Origin: Flavobacterium sp.
GTDB lineage: Bacteria; Bacteroidota; Bacteroidia; Flavobacteriales; Flavobacteriaceae
NCBI RefSeq assembly: GCF_023151265.1
Contig: NZ_JAKLJH010000014.1
Span: 1 to 32,513, forward strand
Length of the DNA stretch: 32,513 nucleotides
Reading direction: 5' to 3'
A program made the translations under genes and the position numbers. This document shows, piece after piece, positions 25,851-32,123 of this stretch. Every line of letters starts with the position of its first letter. Positions within the stretch are counted from its first letter, which is position 1. Under the pieces are notes generated by a model. That model made no database searches. It was not told the origin of the DNA and saw only the letters and a list, made by a program, of their open reading frames with translations.

Positions 25851-26480
25851 ATGCCGCTATATAAAATTATACATATAAACGAAACCACAACTGCGTACTT
25901 TTGGCATATTACTGAAGACGTAACTTCATTATTTAGAGCGGTTTCGTTAAAAGATACTTCGCTTTTTCGTTTAGAAGGAATGAAATCGGAAGAACACCAG
26001 AGAGGATTTTTAGCGGTTCGAATGTTATTACAACATTTAGGTTACACCGATTATGATTTAACATATGATGAAGCAGGTAAGCCACATCTAAGTGATCGTA
26101 AACATATTTCTATATCACATTCGCACGAATTTTCATGTATTTGCATTAGTAATGAATTGATGGGAATCGATTTGGAAAAACTCAAAGACAAAACACTTCG
26201 AATTGCTCCGAGATTTATGGAAATAAAGCATTTAGAAAATCTTTCTGTATTGGAACAAATGGAGAAAGCAACGGTGGTTTGGGGAATTAAAGAATCGATT
26301 TTTAAAATCAAAAACGAAAAAGGAATCAGTTTTCCAGAACATATTTTTGAAGATGAATTTTGTTTTTCTGATGAAAAATGTGCTGCTGAATTGCATTTTA
26401 ATAACACAATAGAAAAGTTTAAAATTCATTTTTATAAAGTAGAAGATTATATCTTTGTGTGTGCCTTTCCAAATAAATAA
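25851..26480 (+). CDS. 4'-phosphopantetheinyl transferase superfamily protein
   Basis: ISISHSHEFSCICIS, MGIDLEKL, VVWGIKESIFKI. Confidence 0.88.
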   Translation: MPLYKIIHINETTTAYFWHITEDVTSLFRAVSLKDTSLFRLEGMKSEEHQRGFLAVRMLLQHLGYTDYDLTYDEAGKPHLSDRKHISISHSHEFSCICISNELMGIDLEKLKDKTLRIAPRFMEIKHLENLSVLEQMEKATVVWGIKESIFKIKNEKGISFPEHIFEDEFCFSDEKCAAELHFNNTIEKFKIHFYKVEDYIFVCAFPNK

Positions 26481-26481
26481 A

Positions 26482-27198
26482 ATGCAAAATCTCTACCAAA
26501 ATATACTTCAAGCTAAAAAAGACAATCGAAAACTATTGGCTATTCTTATCGATCCAGAAAAAGTTTCGATAGAAAAAGTTTTGGTTTTAGCTGATAAAAT
26601 TAAGACTTCACCCGCAACTCATATTTTTGTAGGCGGAAGTACTTTTAGCGGAACGCATTTGGATGAATTGATAGCGACATTAAAAAAAGAAACACAATTA
26701 CCCATTTTAATTTTTCCAGGTCATCCATCCCAAATTTCCAATGAAGCTGATGGAATTCTATTTTTAAGTTTGCTTTCGGGTCGAAATCCGGAATATTTGA
26801 TTGAACATCATATTAATTCGGTTGAAGCGTTAGAAAAATCAAATTTGGAAATTATCCCAACAGGTTATTTACTTATTGATGGCGGAAAAGAAACCGCAGT
26901 GCAACGTGTAAGTCAAACCCAACCGATTGAAAATAATAATATCGAATTAGCTTACAAAACCGCAAAAGCAGGCGAATTTTTAGGAAAGAAATTAATTTAT
27001 TTAGAAGCAGGAAGCGGAGCTAACCAACACGTTTCATTAGAAATGATTCGTTTTGTATCGCAAAATATTAGAATTCCATTGATTGTTGGAGGCGGCATTC
27101 GTTCTATGAAAACCATTCAAGAAGTGTATGAAGCCGGTGCAGATTTGGTGGTAATTGGAACAGCTTTTGAAAACGATAGTAACTTCTTTTCGCTATGA
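26482..27198 (+). CDS. Geranylgeranylglyceryl/heptaprenylglyceryl phosphate synthase
   Basis: LAILIDPEKV, HIFVGGSTFSG, IYLEAGSGANQHV, LIVGGGIRS; ATG 26482 preferred to 26455. Confidence 0.92.
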   Translation: MQNLYQNILQAKKDNRKLLAILIDPEKVSIEKVLVLADKIKTSPATHIFVGGSTFSGTHLDELIATLKKETQLPILIFPGHPSQISNEADGILFLSLLSGRNPEYLIEHHINSVEALEKSNLEIIPTGYLLIDGGKETAVQRVSQTQPIENNNIELAYKTAKAGEFLGKKLIYLEAGSGANQHVSLEMIRFVSQNIRIPLIVGGGIRSMKTIQEVYEAGADLVVIGTAFENDSNFFSL

Positions 27199-27809
27199 TA
27201 GAGTTTTTATTTTCCCAATATAAAGAGTATTCCAACTTCTTAATTGCATTAGAATTAATTGCCGTTGTGTTTGGAGTTATCAGTGTTTTATTTGCTCGAA
27301 AAAATAATATTTTGGTGTACCCAACGGGTTTGGTAAGTACGATTCTTTACGTTTATATTTTGTTTGAATTTCAATTATATGGCGATTTAATTATCAATTT
27401 TTATTATACGATTATGAGTGTTTTAGGTTGGTATTTATGGTCTAAAACAAAAGACGGAGCAGAAGAATTTCCCATTTCAACTATAAATCGGAAAGAATTT
27501 CTAATTTCAACGCTAATTTTTATAATTACCTTAACGTTTGTTGCATTAGTTTACCATTTTTTTGATAAATTTACCCATTGGACAGCTTATGTTGACGCAC
27601 TCACCACAGGATTATTTTTTGTTGGGATGTGGCTCATGGCCAAAAGAAAAATCGAAAACTGGATTTTATGGATTATTGCCGATGCAATTTCAATTCCTTT
27701 ATACTTTTATAAAGGTTTGACCTTTTCGAGTTTTCAATTTATACTATTTACGATTATTGCTATTTTAGGCTATAAAGAATGGAAAAGATTTTTACAGAAG
27801 ACGATTTAA
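27195..27809 (+). CDS. pnuC: PnuC family vitamin transporter (nicotinamide riboside or thiamine type)
   Basis: VFGVISVLFARKNNILVYPTGLVSTILYVYILFEFQLYGDLIINFYYTIMSVLGWYLW. Confidence 0.9.
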   Translation: MIEFLFSQYKEYSNFLIALELIAVVFGVISVLFARKNNILVYPTGLVSTILYVYILFEFQLYGDLIINFYYTIMSVLGWYLWSKTKDGAEEFPISTINRKEFLISTLIFIITLTFVALVYHFFDKFTHWTAYVDALTTGLFFVGMWLMAKRKIENWILWIIADAISIPLYFYKGLTFSSFQFILFTIIAILGYKEWKRFLQKTI

Positions 27810-29314
27810 TATACATACAAAATAGAGGAAATTCAATAGAGAAAATTCAACAACAGTTGGATTTTTTTATCCAAGGAATTCCCAAAATTAACTTAGTTCG
27901 CTCAGCAAAAGTAGGCGATGGTATTTGGCAATTTTTAGAAGAGGATACCACTGTTTTTGTAAACTATTTCGATAAACACAAAGCCAATTATTCTATTGAA
28001 AAGTTTGTGCCTGCTTCAGGTGCGGCTACTCGTATGTTTAAATTTTTGAATGAGTTTTTGAATGAGTTTGATGCCGAGAATGACACTATCAATAGTTACA
28101 TCAATAAGCGAAATGCTAAAGATATTTCAATTTTTATTTTTGGATTGAAAAACTTTCCTTTTTATAGAGAATTGAAGGAAAAAACTATTCAATTGTATCC
28201 AAATTATTATTCGTTATCAAGCGATAAAAAATATCACGCATTAATAAAAACATTGTTAAGCAAAGAAGGATTAGATTTTGCTAACAAGCCAAAAGGTATT
28301 TTGCCTTTTCATGTGAGAGATGAGAAAATAATAACTCCAATTGAAGAAAATATTTTTGAGTCCGATTTTTTTAAGAAAGAAAATCAAAAGACAAAAATTC
28401 ATTTTACCATTACTGAAGAATTTCAACCTGATTTTGAGAAAATTACCAATCAATTTTCAGATTGTGAAATTAGTTTTTCGTATCAAAATCAATCCACTGA
28501 TACCTTAGCGGTTAATGAAAATAATACACCTTTTCGAATTGAAGGTAACAAATTGTTCTTTAGACCCGGAGGACATGGCGCTTTGATTGATAATTTGAAT
28601 GCGTTACAATCGGATATAATTTACATTAAAAATATTGATAACGTTTCTCAAAATCATAGAAAAGTAATTGAAACGAACAAGAAGTTATTAGGTGGTGTTT
28701 TATTTTTTGTTCAGTACAAAATTTTCAATTATTTAAAATTACTTTCAAGCGGAAATGTTACCGAAACTCAAATAACTGAAATCAAAGATTTTGCAGAGAA
28801 TAAAACGTCTTTTCCTTTGCCAGAAGAATTCAATTTTTTCCAAACCGAATACAAAATTGAGTATTTAATTAAAGTCTTAAATCGACCTATTCGTGTTTGT
28901 GGAATGGTTAAAAATGAAGGGGAACCAGGCGGTGGACCATTTTGGGTACAAGATGAAAAAGGGCGTCAAACTTTGCAAATTGTTGAATCGTCTCAAATAG
29001 ATTTGAATAATAAATCGCAAAAAAATATTGCTAAAGAAGCTACGCATTTTAATCCTGTGGACATTGTTTGTGGAGTTAAAAATTTCAAAGGCGAAAAGTT
29101 TGATTTAAACCAATTCATAGATCCAAAAGCAGCTTTTATTACCGAAAAAACAAAAAACGGAAAACCAATTAAAGCCTTTGAGCTTCCCGGATTATGGAAT
29201 GGCGCAATGGCAAAATGGACCACTATTTTTGTTGAGGTTCCGTTAGAAACTTTCAATCCAGTTAAAACTGTAAATGATTTATTAAAATCGTCACATCAAC
29301 CTGATAATGGATAA
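27779..29314 (+). CDS. DUF4301 family protein, possibly UDP-sugar-pyrophosphorylase-like
   Basis: VPASGAATRMFKFL, FRPGGHGALIDNL, KNIDNV, FVEVPLETFNPVKTVNDLL. Confidence 0.85.
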   Translation: MEKIFTEDDLIYIQNRGNSIEKIQQQLDFFIQGIPKINLVRSAKVGDGIWQFLEEDTTVFVNYFDKHKANYSIEKFVPASGAATRMFKFLNEFLNEFDAENDTINSYINKRNAKDISIFIFGLKNFPFYRELKEKTIQLYPNYYSLSSDKKYHALIKTLLSKEGLDFANKPKGILPFHVRDEKIITPIEENIFESDFFKKENQKTKIHFTITEEFQPDFEKITNQFSDCEISFSYQNQSTDTLAVNENNTPFRIEGNKLFFRPGGHGALIDNLNALQSDIIYIKNIDNVSQNHRKVIETNKKLLGGVLFFVQYKIFNYLKLLSSGNVTETQITEIKDFAENKTSFPLPEEFNFFQTEYKIEYLIKVLNRPIRVCGMVKNEGEPGGGPFWVQDEKGRQTLQIVESSQIDLNNKSQKNIAKEATHFNPVDIVCGVKNFKGEKFDLNQFIDPKAAFITEKTKNGKPIKAFELPGLWNGAMAKWTTIFVEVPLETFNPVKTVNDLLKSSHQPDNG

Positions 29315-29708
29315 ATCAATTATTGCATCAGAATTTTCGTTTAAAGCGGTGAGAAGTAGCGGAGCAGGAGGACAAAATGTAAATAAAGTGTCTTCTAAAG
29401 TCGTGCTGACTTTCGATTTAGTCAATTCAAAAGGATTAACAGAAGAAGAAAAAATTTTGTTGCAAGCTAAAATCGCAACTAAATTAACTCAAGAAGGAAT
29501 CCTAATCTTAACTAGCGAAGAAGACAGAAGTCAACTGAAAAACAAAGAAAAAGTTATTAAGAAATGTTTTAAGTTGCTTGAAAATGCGTTGGTTGTTCCA
29601 AAAGAAAGAAAAGAAACTAAAATTCCAAGAGCGGTAAAAGAAAAACGTTTGAACGCTAAAAAAGTAATGAGCGTTTTAAAGCAAAATAGGAAAAAACCAA
29701 AGTTTTAA
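29307..29708 (+). CDS. arfB: Alternative ribosome rescue factor / aminoacyl-tRNA hydrolase
   Basis: RSSGAGGQNVNKVSSKVVLTFDL GGQ motif and basic C-terminus. Confidence 0.93.
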   Translation: MDKSIIASEFSFKAVRSSGAGGQNVNKVSSKVVLTFDLVNSKGLTEEEKILLQAKIATKLTQEGILILTSEEDRSQLKNKEKVIKKCFKLLENALVVPKERKETKIPRAVKEKRLNAKKVMSVLKQNRKKPKF

Positions 29709-29749: not shown

Positions 29750-29751
29750 CC

Positions 29752-29835
29752 TCGTCTCAAAGGGGTGCTCTAAATAACGAGCTGAGATCATACCCATAGA
29801 ACCTAGAACAGATAATGCTGTTTAGGGAAACGACA
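29752..29835 (+). promoter_or_regulatory. TPP (THI-element) riboswitch aptamer
   Basis: GGGGTGCTC ... GAGCTGAGATCATACCCATAGAACCTAGAACAGATAATGCTGTTTAGGGAAACGA; P1 TCGT/ACGA. Confidence 0.95.
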
Positions 29836-29930
29836 AAAATAAATGTGCACGTTTATTAGCGTCAAAGAGTATCAATAATTAATTTTTAATCAAGGAATAA
29901 TTACCCCTTTTATTCGTATTTATTTTACGA

Positions 29931-32123
29931 ATGAAAACTTTATTCAAAAAAAATGGCTTAATGCCAAAAACAAAAAGTCGCTATTTTAGTTGCCTTTTAC
30001 CTTTTGCCTTTTACCTTTTGCCTTTTGCTGCTTTTTCGCAAGAAACCAAGAAAGACACCACAAAAGTTACCGAACTTAAAGAAGTTACGGTTTCATCTGT
30101 TAGAGCAAAAGACAAAAATCCAATTACGTACACGAATGTATCCAAAGAAGAAATTGCGCCACGAAATTTAGGTCAAGATGTACCGGTTTTGTTGCAATAT
30201 TTGCCTTCTGTGGTTAGTACAACCGATGCTGGAAATGGAGTAGGTTACACGTACATGAGGGTTCGTGGTTCCGATGGCTCTCGAATTAATGTTACCTTAA
30301 ACGGAGTTCCTTTTAATGATAGTGAAAGTCAAGGAACATTTTTTGTGAATTTACCTGATTTTGCTTCTTCTTTAGAAAGTGTTCAGTTGCAACGTGGAGT
30401 GGGAACTTCAACTAATGGAGCTGGAGCTTTTGGAGCCAGTTTAAACATGGCAACCAAATCCTATCAAGAAAAAGCGTATGCCGAAATTTCAAATTCCTTT
30501 GGAAGTTTTAATGCAAGAAAGCATACTTTGTCTTTTGGGACTGGTTTGCATAATAACTTCGAAATGAATGGTCGAATTTCTAATATAGCTTCGGATGGAT
30601 TTATTGATAGAGCCACATCAAATATGTTTGGTTACTTTTTTAATGTTAATTACGTTAAAGAGTCAACTTTAGTAAAGTTGTTAGCTTTTGGTGGAAAAGA
30701 GAAAACCTATCAAGCTTGGTACGGAATTGAAGATCCTGAAAAACTAAAAAACGATCGAACATTCAATCCTGCAGGAATGTATTTCGATGAATTCGGAAAT
30801 ATGCAATTCTATGATAATGAAACCGATAATTATTGGCAGAATCATTTTCAATTGCATTGGACAGAAAAATGGTCGGAGAACTGGATTTCAAATGCGGCAT
30901 TGCATTACACCATTGGAAAAGGTTATTTTGAGCAATACAAAGAAGATGAAGATTTAACCGATTATAATTTGCCAGCGTTTAACGGGAATTCAATTTCTGA
31001 TTTGGTAAGAAAACGTTGGTTAGATAATGATTTCTTTGGAGCTACTTTTTCCTTAAATTATAAAAATGAAAACGTCGATTTATTATTTGGAGGTGCTGCT
31101 AATCGTTATTTAGGATTGCATTATGGTGAAGTAGTTTGGACACAAAATTACATTCCAAATCCAAATCGCTATTATGATAATTATGGAAATAAAGACGATG
31201 TAAATTTCTATACAAAAGCATCATACAATGTTACAAACAAGTTGAATTTATTTGCTGATTTGCAATACAGAATGGTGTTTTATGATGCAACAAGCGTGAA
31301 ATTCGATGATGTAAACGATACATTCCGATTTTTTAATCCAAAAGCAGGTTTGAATTATCAATTAAACGAAAAAAATGCTTTTTATGGTTATTTCGGAATT
31401 GCTAACAAAGAACCAAGACGCGACGATTACGAAAGCGGAGCAATAAAACCAGAACGTTTATTCGATTATGAATTAGGTTGGAAATACAACACTAAAAAAG
31501 TAAAATTATACGCAAATGCATTTTATATGCGCTATAATGATCAATTAGTTTTGACAGGCGATTTGAATGATGTTGGTGCTCCAATTTTTACAAATAGTGG
31601 AAAAAGTTATCGATTAGGTTTAGAAGTAGAATCAACAATTGCTTTAACAAATAAATTAATTTTAAATCCGAATTTCACATTAAGTCAAAATAAGAATGAG
31701 GATTTTTATTATGAAATTAATGGAGTAGTTCAGAATTTAGGAAATACTAATATCGCATATTCGCCTAATTTTATTTTTGGAAACCGTTTTTCTTATTTAC
31801 CTGTTAAAGGTTTACAATTATCATTGTTATCAAAGTTTGTAGGAGAACAATATATGGGGAATATCGATTCAGATGTTTCAAAATTAGACAGTTATTTTAT
31901 CAATGATTTCAACGTTTCTTACGATTGGCAAATTAATAAAGGAATCAAATCAATAGTTTTTTCAGCGTTAGTGAATAATATTTTTGATGTAGAATATGAA
32001 TCAAATGGTTATTTCTATACGTATGATGACGATTCTTCAGGAAGTACAATTACTTATGGTGGAGCAGGTTTTTACCCTCAAGCGGGAATAAACTTTCTTC
32101 TTGGAATGAATTTAAAATTTTAG
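29931..32123 (+). CDS. TonB-dependent outer membrane receptor, probable thiamine or precursor uptake
   Basis: Plug YMRVRGSDGSRINVTLNGVPFNDSESQG, beta-barrel, C-terminal FLLGMNLKF; behind a TPP riboswitch. Confidence 0.93.
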   Translation: MKTLFKKNGLMPKTKSRYFSCLLPFAFYLLPFAAFSQETKKDTTKVTELKEVTVSSVRAKDKNPITYTNVSKEEIAPRNLGQDVPVLLQYLPSVVSTTDAGNGVGYTYMRVRGSDGSRINVTLNGVPFNDSESQGTFFVNLPDFASSLESVQLQRGVGTSTNGAGAFGASLNMATKSYQEKAYAEISNSFGSFNARKHTLSFGTGLHNNFEMNGRISNIASDGFIDRATSNMFGYFFNVNYVKESTLVKLLAFGGKEKTYQAWYGIEDPEKLKNDRTFNPAGMYFDEFGNMQFYDNETDNYWQNHFQLHWTEKWSENWISNAALHYTIGKGYFEQYKEDEDLTDYNLPAFNGNSISDLVRKRWLDNDFFGATFSLNYKNENVDLLFGGAANRYLGLHYGEVVWTQNYIPNPNRYYDNYGNKDDVNFYTKASYNVTNKLNLFADLQYRMVFYDATSVKFDDVNDTFRFFNPKAGLNYQLNEKNAFYGYFGIANKEPRRDDYESGAIKPERLFDYELGWKYNTKKVKLYANAFYMRYNDQLVLTGDLNDVGAPIFTNSGKSYRLGLEVESTIALTNKLILNPNFTLSQNKNEDFYYEINGVVQNLGNTNIAYSPNFIFGNRFSYLPVKGLQLSLLSKFVGEQYMGNIDSDVSKLDSYFINDFNVSYDWQINKGIKSIVFSALVNNIFDVEYESNGYFYTYDDDSSGSTITYGGAGFYPQAGINFLLGMNLKF
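29993..30027 (+). repeat. Heptamer tandem array CCTTTT(A/G) x5 in the receptor signal peptide
   Basis: CCTTTTA CCTTTTG CCTTTTA CCTTTTG CCTTTTG, encoding LLPFAFYLLPFA. Confidence 0.9.

Follow-up and report, generated by a model that had tools for sequence, protein, structure and literature searches.

Introduction

The locus studied here raises the question of what a conserved protein labelled 'unknown function' does beside genes for vitamin uptake. The window, the whole 32,513-nucleotide stretch of Flavobacterium sp. DNA that was analysed, encodes a DUF4301 protein (Table 1), and in the open literature that we searched, a single open-access paper mentioned this name, in passing. The initial annotation, made from the letters alone, proposed a divergent UDP-sugar pyrophosphorylase-type nucleotidyltransferase. 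With DUF4301 assigned to the UDPGP family, its predicted catalytic residues can be named, its possible substrates are few, and its enzyme class becomes open to experiment.

Results

The window protein was a full-length DUF4301 (644.4 bits against a cut-off of 27 for Pfam PF14134, E 1.8e-193, model positions 2-507 of 507), and neither an NCBIfam model nor a PDB sequence matched it. Its nearest named relative was from Flavobacterium proteolyticum (94% identity). Among 297 genomes sampled across the phylum Bacteroidota, 52 had the family, and within the Flavobacteriaceae it was present in 85 of the 101 genera sampled. An alignment of 86 diverse members, which share 32-55% identity with the window protein, contained 43 invariant columns. 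In one Flavobacterium genome (G290, locus L072, 3980-5499), an in-frame stop or frameshift left DUF4301 as two ORFs, and the DUF4301 match of genome G393 had an internal TAA.

Table 1. Features of the DUF4301 locus, with residue numbers of the window protein
Feature	Position	Strand	Basis
pnuC-family transporter	27195..27809	+	Pfam PF04973, E 2.8e-55
DUF4301 protein, 511 aa, predicted UDPGP-like nucleotidyltransferase	27779..29314	+	Pfam PF14134, AlphaFold2 model, Foldseek
Nucleotide-binding loop VPASGAATRMFKFL, residues 77-90	28007..28048	+	S80, G81, R85 and M86 invariant (86 members)
PKGILPFH, residues 171-178	28289..28312	+	K172 on the UGPase phosphate-binding Lys (UGP2 K127, AnUGP K135)
SFSYQNQSTDT, residues 232-242	28472..28504	+	Q236, candidate uracil-reading Gln (AnUGP Q198)
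FRPGGHGALIDNL, residues 261-273	28559..28597	+	G265 and H266 on UGPase G222/H223
YIKNIDNV, residues 282-289	28622..28645	+	N285 and D287 on UGPase N251/D253 (Mg-binding Asp)
TLQIVESSQID...THFNPVDIVCG, residues 398-432	28970..29074	+	E403 and N425 on sugar-pocket E307/N329 (AnUGP numbering)
FVEVPLETFNPVKTVNDLL, residues 484-502	29228..29284	+	K496 on the UGPase catalytic Lys (UGP2 K396)
ArfB ribosome-rescue hydrolase	29307..29708	+	NCBIfam NF006718 over cut-off; 8 bp overlap with DUF4301
TPP riboswitch	29751..29846	+	RF00059, 43.6 bits, E 3e-7; below the Rfam gathering score of 54.3
TonB-dependent receptor	29931..32123	+	Pfam PF00593/PF07715; downstream of the TPP riboswitch

The AlphaFold2 model of the window protein, built with the 86-member alignment, reached a pLDDT of 94.7 and a pTM of 0.92. 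When it was compared with the PDB by Foldseek, all of the best 50 matches were UGPase or UAP, enzymes of the UDPGP family, and the top match was human UGPase (E 1.5e-10, probability 1.00). The TM-scores to UDPGP enzymes were moderate (0.37-0.54), the highest being those of UAP1/AGX1 (1JV1; AfUAP1; 0.50-0.54); by query length they were 0.37-0.52, values to be expected when the core matches and the insertions are large. The predicted fold is common to the UGPases of PF01704 (human UGP2, 4R7P/3R3I; yeast Ugp1, 2I5K; L. major UGP, 2OEF), with the same order of strands and motifs and about 9-17% identity over the structural alignments. DUF4301 differs from them in a helical insertion of about 80 residues between the nucleotide loop and the PK motif and in another of about 60 residues after the DN motif. 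It also lacks the C-terminal left-handed beta-helix domain of UGPase, ending at residue 511, nine residues past NPVKTVNDLL. The initial annotation had named a predicted structure without a GT-A/UDPGP fold as the outcome that would speak against it, and the structure came out UDPGP-like, in concordance with the sequence evidence. For its other condition, that the motif residues gather in a common pocket, the alignment of these residues with known UGPase active-site positions gives indirect support. A SUPERFAMILY match of DUF4301 to the nucleotide-diphospho-sugar transferase fold may already exist; if so, the fold call is less novel, while the novelty of the residue map is unaffected.

Searches of the PDB sequences with DUF4301, single-sequence and profile, did not find a UDPGP match, and the Pfam scan of the window protein itself gave no PF01704 match. 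The link was visible solely via the structure, the per-member Pfam scans and the profile-profile comparison. When the members were scanned one by one with hmmscan, 28 of 86 matched PF01704 at E<=1, and the next most frequent family apart from DUF4301 was matched by four of 86. Member L074 scored 24.3 bits, above the Pfam gathering cut-off of 22 bits, and L004 and L019 fell just under it (21.8 and 21.4 bits). Most of these matches shared model positions about 240-345. Conversely, a PF01704 search of 61 genomes retrieved the DUF4301 gene of genome G009 unprompted. In hhalign, the DUF4301 profile aligned with four UGPases at E 8.3e-7 and a score of 59.1, the aligned part being the second half of the protein only; the controls reached 19.9 (reversed), at most 28.4 (60 column shuffles) and at most 38.5 (60 block shuffles). 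Against five UDPGP enzymes, the profile scored higher with the UGPases than with UAP, and AGX1 was the lowest. The query sequences of human UGP2, AGX1 and L. major UGP were identical to the PDB chains over the aligned range, and those of yeast and A. fumigatus were copied from PDB alignments. Taken together, homology of DUF4301 to UDPGP and a UDPGP fold are nearly certain.

The four motifs quoted in the initial annotation were all present in the window ORF, in the order claimed. Their core residues were invariant or nearly so in the 86 proteins; this conservation, together with a UGPase alignment far better than the controls, indicates that the motifs are not due to chance. Four MAFFT strategies, run unguided, concurred in placing K172, G265, H266, N285, D287, E403, N425 and K496 on active-site positions of UGPase (K127, G222, H223, N251, D253, the sugar-pocket E, the first N of FNxNN and K396), and each was conserved in 85-86 of 86 members. 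K172, H266, D287 and K496, the counterparts of the phosphate-binding Lys, the GHG His, the Mg-binding Asp and the catalytic C-terminal Lys, were found in 86 of 86. Q236 was conserved to the same extent, and the alignments put the uracil-binding Gln of UGPase one column off, on residue 237. DUF4301 carries the UGPase-like signatures GHG, NIDN, ESAQ and PVKT, from which the UAP motifs GQGTRLG, GNGG, CVDN and SPLKN differ. The fold, the homology and the conservation of the aligned residues were established in this way.

The N-terminal loop had been likened to G-x-GTR. The stretch in question is present, but it reads S-G-A-A-[T/S]-R and not G-x-G-T-R; in DUF4301 the GG[LQ]GT nucleotide-binding loop of the UDPGP family (GGLGT in UGPase) was absent, with SGAA[T/S]R in its place. 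MAFFT E-INS-i paired S80 with the first glycine of NGG in the UGPase loop and T84 with the threonine of LGT, a placement that the other MAFFT modes did not reproduce. In addition, V427 of DUF4301 sat on UGPase N331 in the MAFFT alignments. As both the loop and this position are changed, substrate handling may differ from that of UGPase.

The claimed overlap of pnuC with DUF4301 was real, 31 bp being shared. In the Flavobacteriaceae, the usual order was pnuC, NadR-type kinase, DUF4301, arfB, TPP riboswitch and TonB-dependent receptor, and a TPP riboswitch lay at the equivalent site in dozens of relatives. The receptor of the window is presumably a riboswitch-controlled thiamine receptor. The kinase of the cluster is a Pfam AAA_28 protein and was NadR-type by NCBIfam, PDB sequence and fold. 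A thiamine operon of the form OMthi-pnuT-tnr3 has been reported in Bacteroides (PMC5613172). Several genomes without DUF4301 retained pnuC, kinase, TPP riboswitch and TonB receptor, and one of them (G311) had receptor-pnuC-thiamine pyrophosphokinase instead, with a more distant PnuC. In other Bacteroidota, DUF4301 was found without the vitamin cluster genes. The suggestion of vitamin or cofactor metabolism drawn from the overlap fits the neighbourhood but is only a possibility for DUF4301: the cluster persists in several genomes without DUF4301, and DUF4301 occurs without the cluster. These data suggest that the cluster of pnuC, kinase, riboswitch and receptor salvages thiamine, with nicotinamide riboside possible too, and that DUF4301 is dispensable for this salvage. 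A geranylgeranylglyceryl phosphate synthase family gene (an archaeal-type lipid enzyme; 26455-27198, +) adjoins pnuC and is kept in the cluster. Elsewhere in the window, a Flavo-1 RNA (RF01705; 5436-5502, -) was above the gathering score, and this RNA was also found at locus L079.

The NadR-type kinase was fused N-terminally to DUF4301 in one ORF at 26 loci in three lineages (including L020, 829-3036; L017; L078). The tree of the kinase-DUF4301 loci needs several fusions and about three losses of the kinase within Flavobacterium, including the lineage of the window, where the kinase is missing, yet DUF4301 retains every invariant residue. NadD was above the cut-off in 98 of 101 Flavobacteriaceae genomes, and because it is nearly universal, DUF4301 was rejected as a replacement for the NMN adenylyltransferase. 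Thiamine pyrophosphokinase (TPK) was detected in only seven of 101 Flavobacteriaceae genera and was absent from 94; it was present in 18 of 24 DUF4301 genomes outside this family and in all same-genus genomes tested. DUF4301 was likewise rejected as a TPK replacement, as the two co-occur. The idea that TPK is confined to genomes that have lost the kinase failed, given its presence in all the same-genus genomes tested. It is possible that the NadR-like kinase, as at loci L126-L135 with the order pnuC-AAA_28-TPP riboswitch-TonB receptor, acts as a thiamine kinase substituting for TPK, a nicotinamide riboside kinase being the alternative; no directly relevant paper on a NadR-like thiamine kinase came up in our literature searches.

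Discussion

In this study, we found that DUF4301 is a distant relative of the UTP-dependent sugar-activating enzymes in which nearly all active-site residues are kept. It is a predicted bacterial UDPGP-type enzyme with a different nucleotide loop and without the beta-helix domain. We regard it as a divergent branch of UDPGP, a GT-A-like nucleotidyltransferase, and probably a UTP:hexose-1-phosphate uridylyltransferase, our best guess because its scores favour UGPase over UAP. In the UGPase of A. nidulans, K135, H228 and K403 serve the phosphates and D258 the Mg ion, Q198, G227 and the NB loop the uridine, and N256, N329, N331 and E307 the glucose (PMC10470519). In AfUAP1, the lysine equivalent to K403 (K437) is required for catalysis, and T140/R141 bind the gamma-phosphate of UTP (PMC8386105); judged by eye, T84/R85 of DUF4301 could be their counterparts.

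We infer a catalytic activity, its NTP and its sugar, UTP and a hexose-1-phosphate being the best inference for the substrates and somewhat better than an even bet. DUF4301 would bind Mg-UTP, the phosphate of the sugar-1-phosphate would attack the alpha-phosphate of UTP, and a UDP-sugar and pyrophosphate would be released. Phosphate binding would fall to K172, H266 and K496 and sugar binding to E403/N425/N285, with the Mg ion bound by D287 and the uracil by Q236. Among the sugars, glucose-1-phosphate comes first as a candidate, because UGPase is closer to DUF4301 than UAP is and because three relatives have the gene of a GT3 glycogen synthase next to that of DUF4301.

A UDPGP-fold nucleotidyltransferase with a vitamin phosphate (TMP, TPP or NMN) as its substrate, acting in sequence with the NadR-like kinase fused to it, like the kinase and the adenylyltransferase within NadR, would account for the widespread Flavobacteriaceae order pnuC-kinase-DUF4301-TPP riboswitch-TonB receptor, with or without arfB, for the recurrent one-ORF fusions and for the NadR-type character of the kinase. 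NadR, a ribosylnicotinamide kinase and NMN adenylyltransferase, is likewise a kinase-nucleotidyltransferase protein, as is the kinase-DUF4301 fusion of many Flavobacterium, but in the fusion the domain order is reversed and the DUF4301 part is UDPGP-like and not of the NadR adenylyltransferase fold. The genomes that hold the cluster without DUF4301, the survival of DUF4301 through about three losses of the kinase, its presence without the cluster genes in other Bacteroidota, the near-universal NadD, which leaves no NMN adenylyltransferase missing, and the invariant sugar-pocket residues E403/N425 all argue against it, and we consider a vitamin substrate unlikely. Its extended form, in which the fusion would work in two steps, first phosphorylating a salvaged vitamin and next adding a nucleotide by the UDPGP-fold domain to give a nucleotidylated vitamin, is very unlikely; if it were true, a thiamine phosphate in adenylated or uridylylated form would be one conceivable product. 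To our knowledge, vitamin nucleotidylation is not a known chemistry of the UDPGP fold.

The UDPGP fold and the aligned catalytic residues would also suit a uridylyltransferase for another sugar-1-phosphate, such as a hexosamine, a pentose, a uronic acid or an unusual Bacteroidota sugar. The change from N331 to V427 may shift the choice of sugar, and the neighbours of DUF4301 differ outside the Flavobacteriaceae; against this stand the four signatures, which are UGPase-like and not of the UAP type, and the higher scores to the UGPases than to AGX1. Such a sugar seems quite unlikely. The least probable of these readings, a long shot at best, makes DUF4301 a sensor of a nucleotide sugar, a UDPGP homologue that is either catalytically dead or regulatory; the altered nucleotide loop would agree with it, but the aligned catalytic residues are all invariant or nearly so in the 86 sequences, which is not required of a sensor.

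As to the hexose-1-phosphate reading, GT3 glycogen synthase uses UDP-glucose, and its gene lay directly upstream of DUF4301 in L080, L081 and L223. In the relative L062, an isoamylase/alpha-amylase-type gene was upstream of DUF4301. Across the phylum, the co-occurrence with GT3 was weak and only suggestive (DUF4301 in four of 10 GT3 genomes vs 52 of 297 overall, p = 0.08), and no GT3 match was found in the Flavobacteriaceae genomes of the 297-genome sample.

In the deep Flavobacteriales loci L223 (2465-7539) and L236 (5635-10965), where GT3 is directly upstream of DUF4301, a gene for a small conserved protein lies further upstream. At L223, pnuC was also present further upstream of the GT3-DUF4301 pair.
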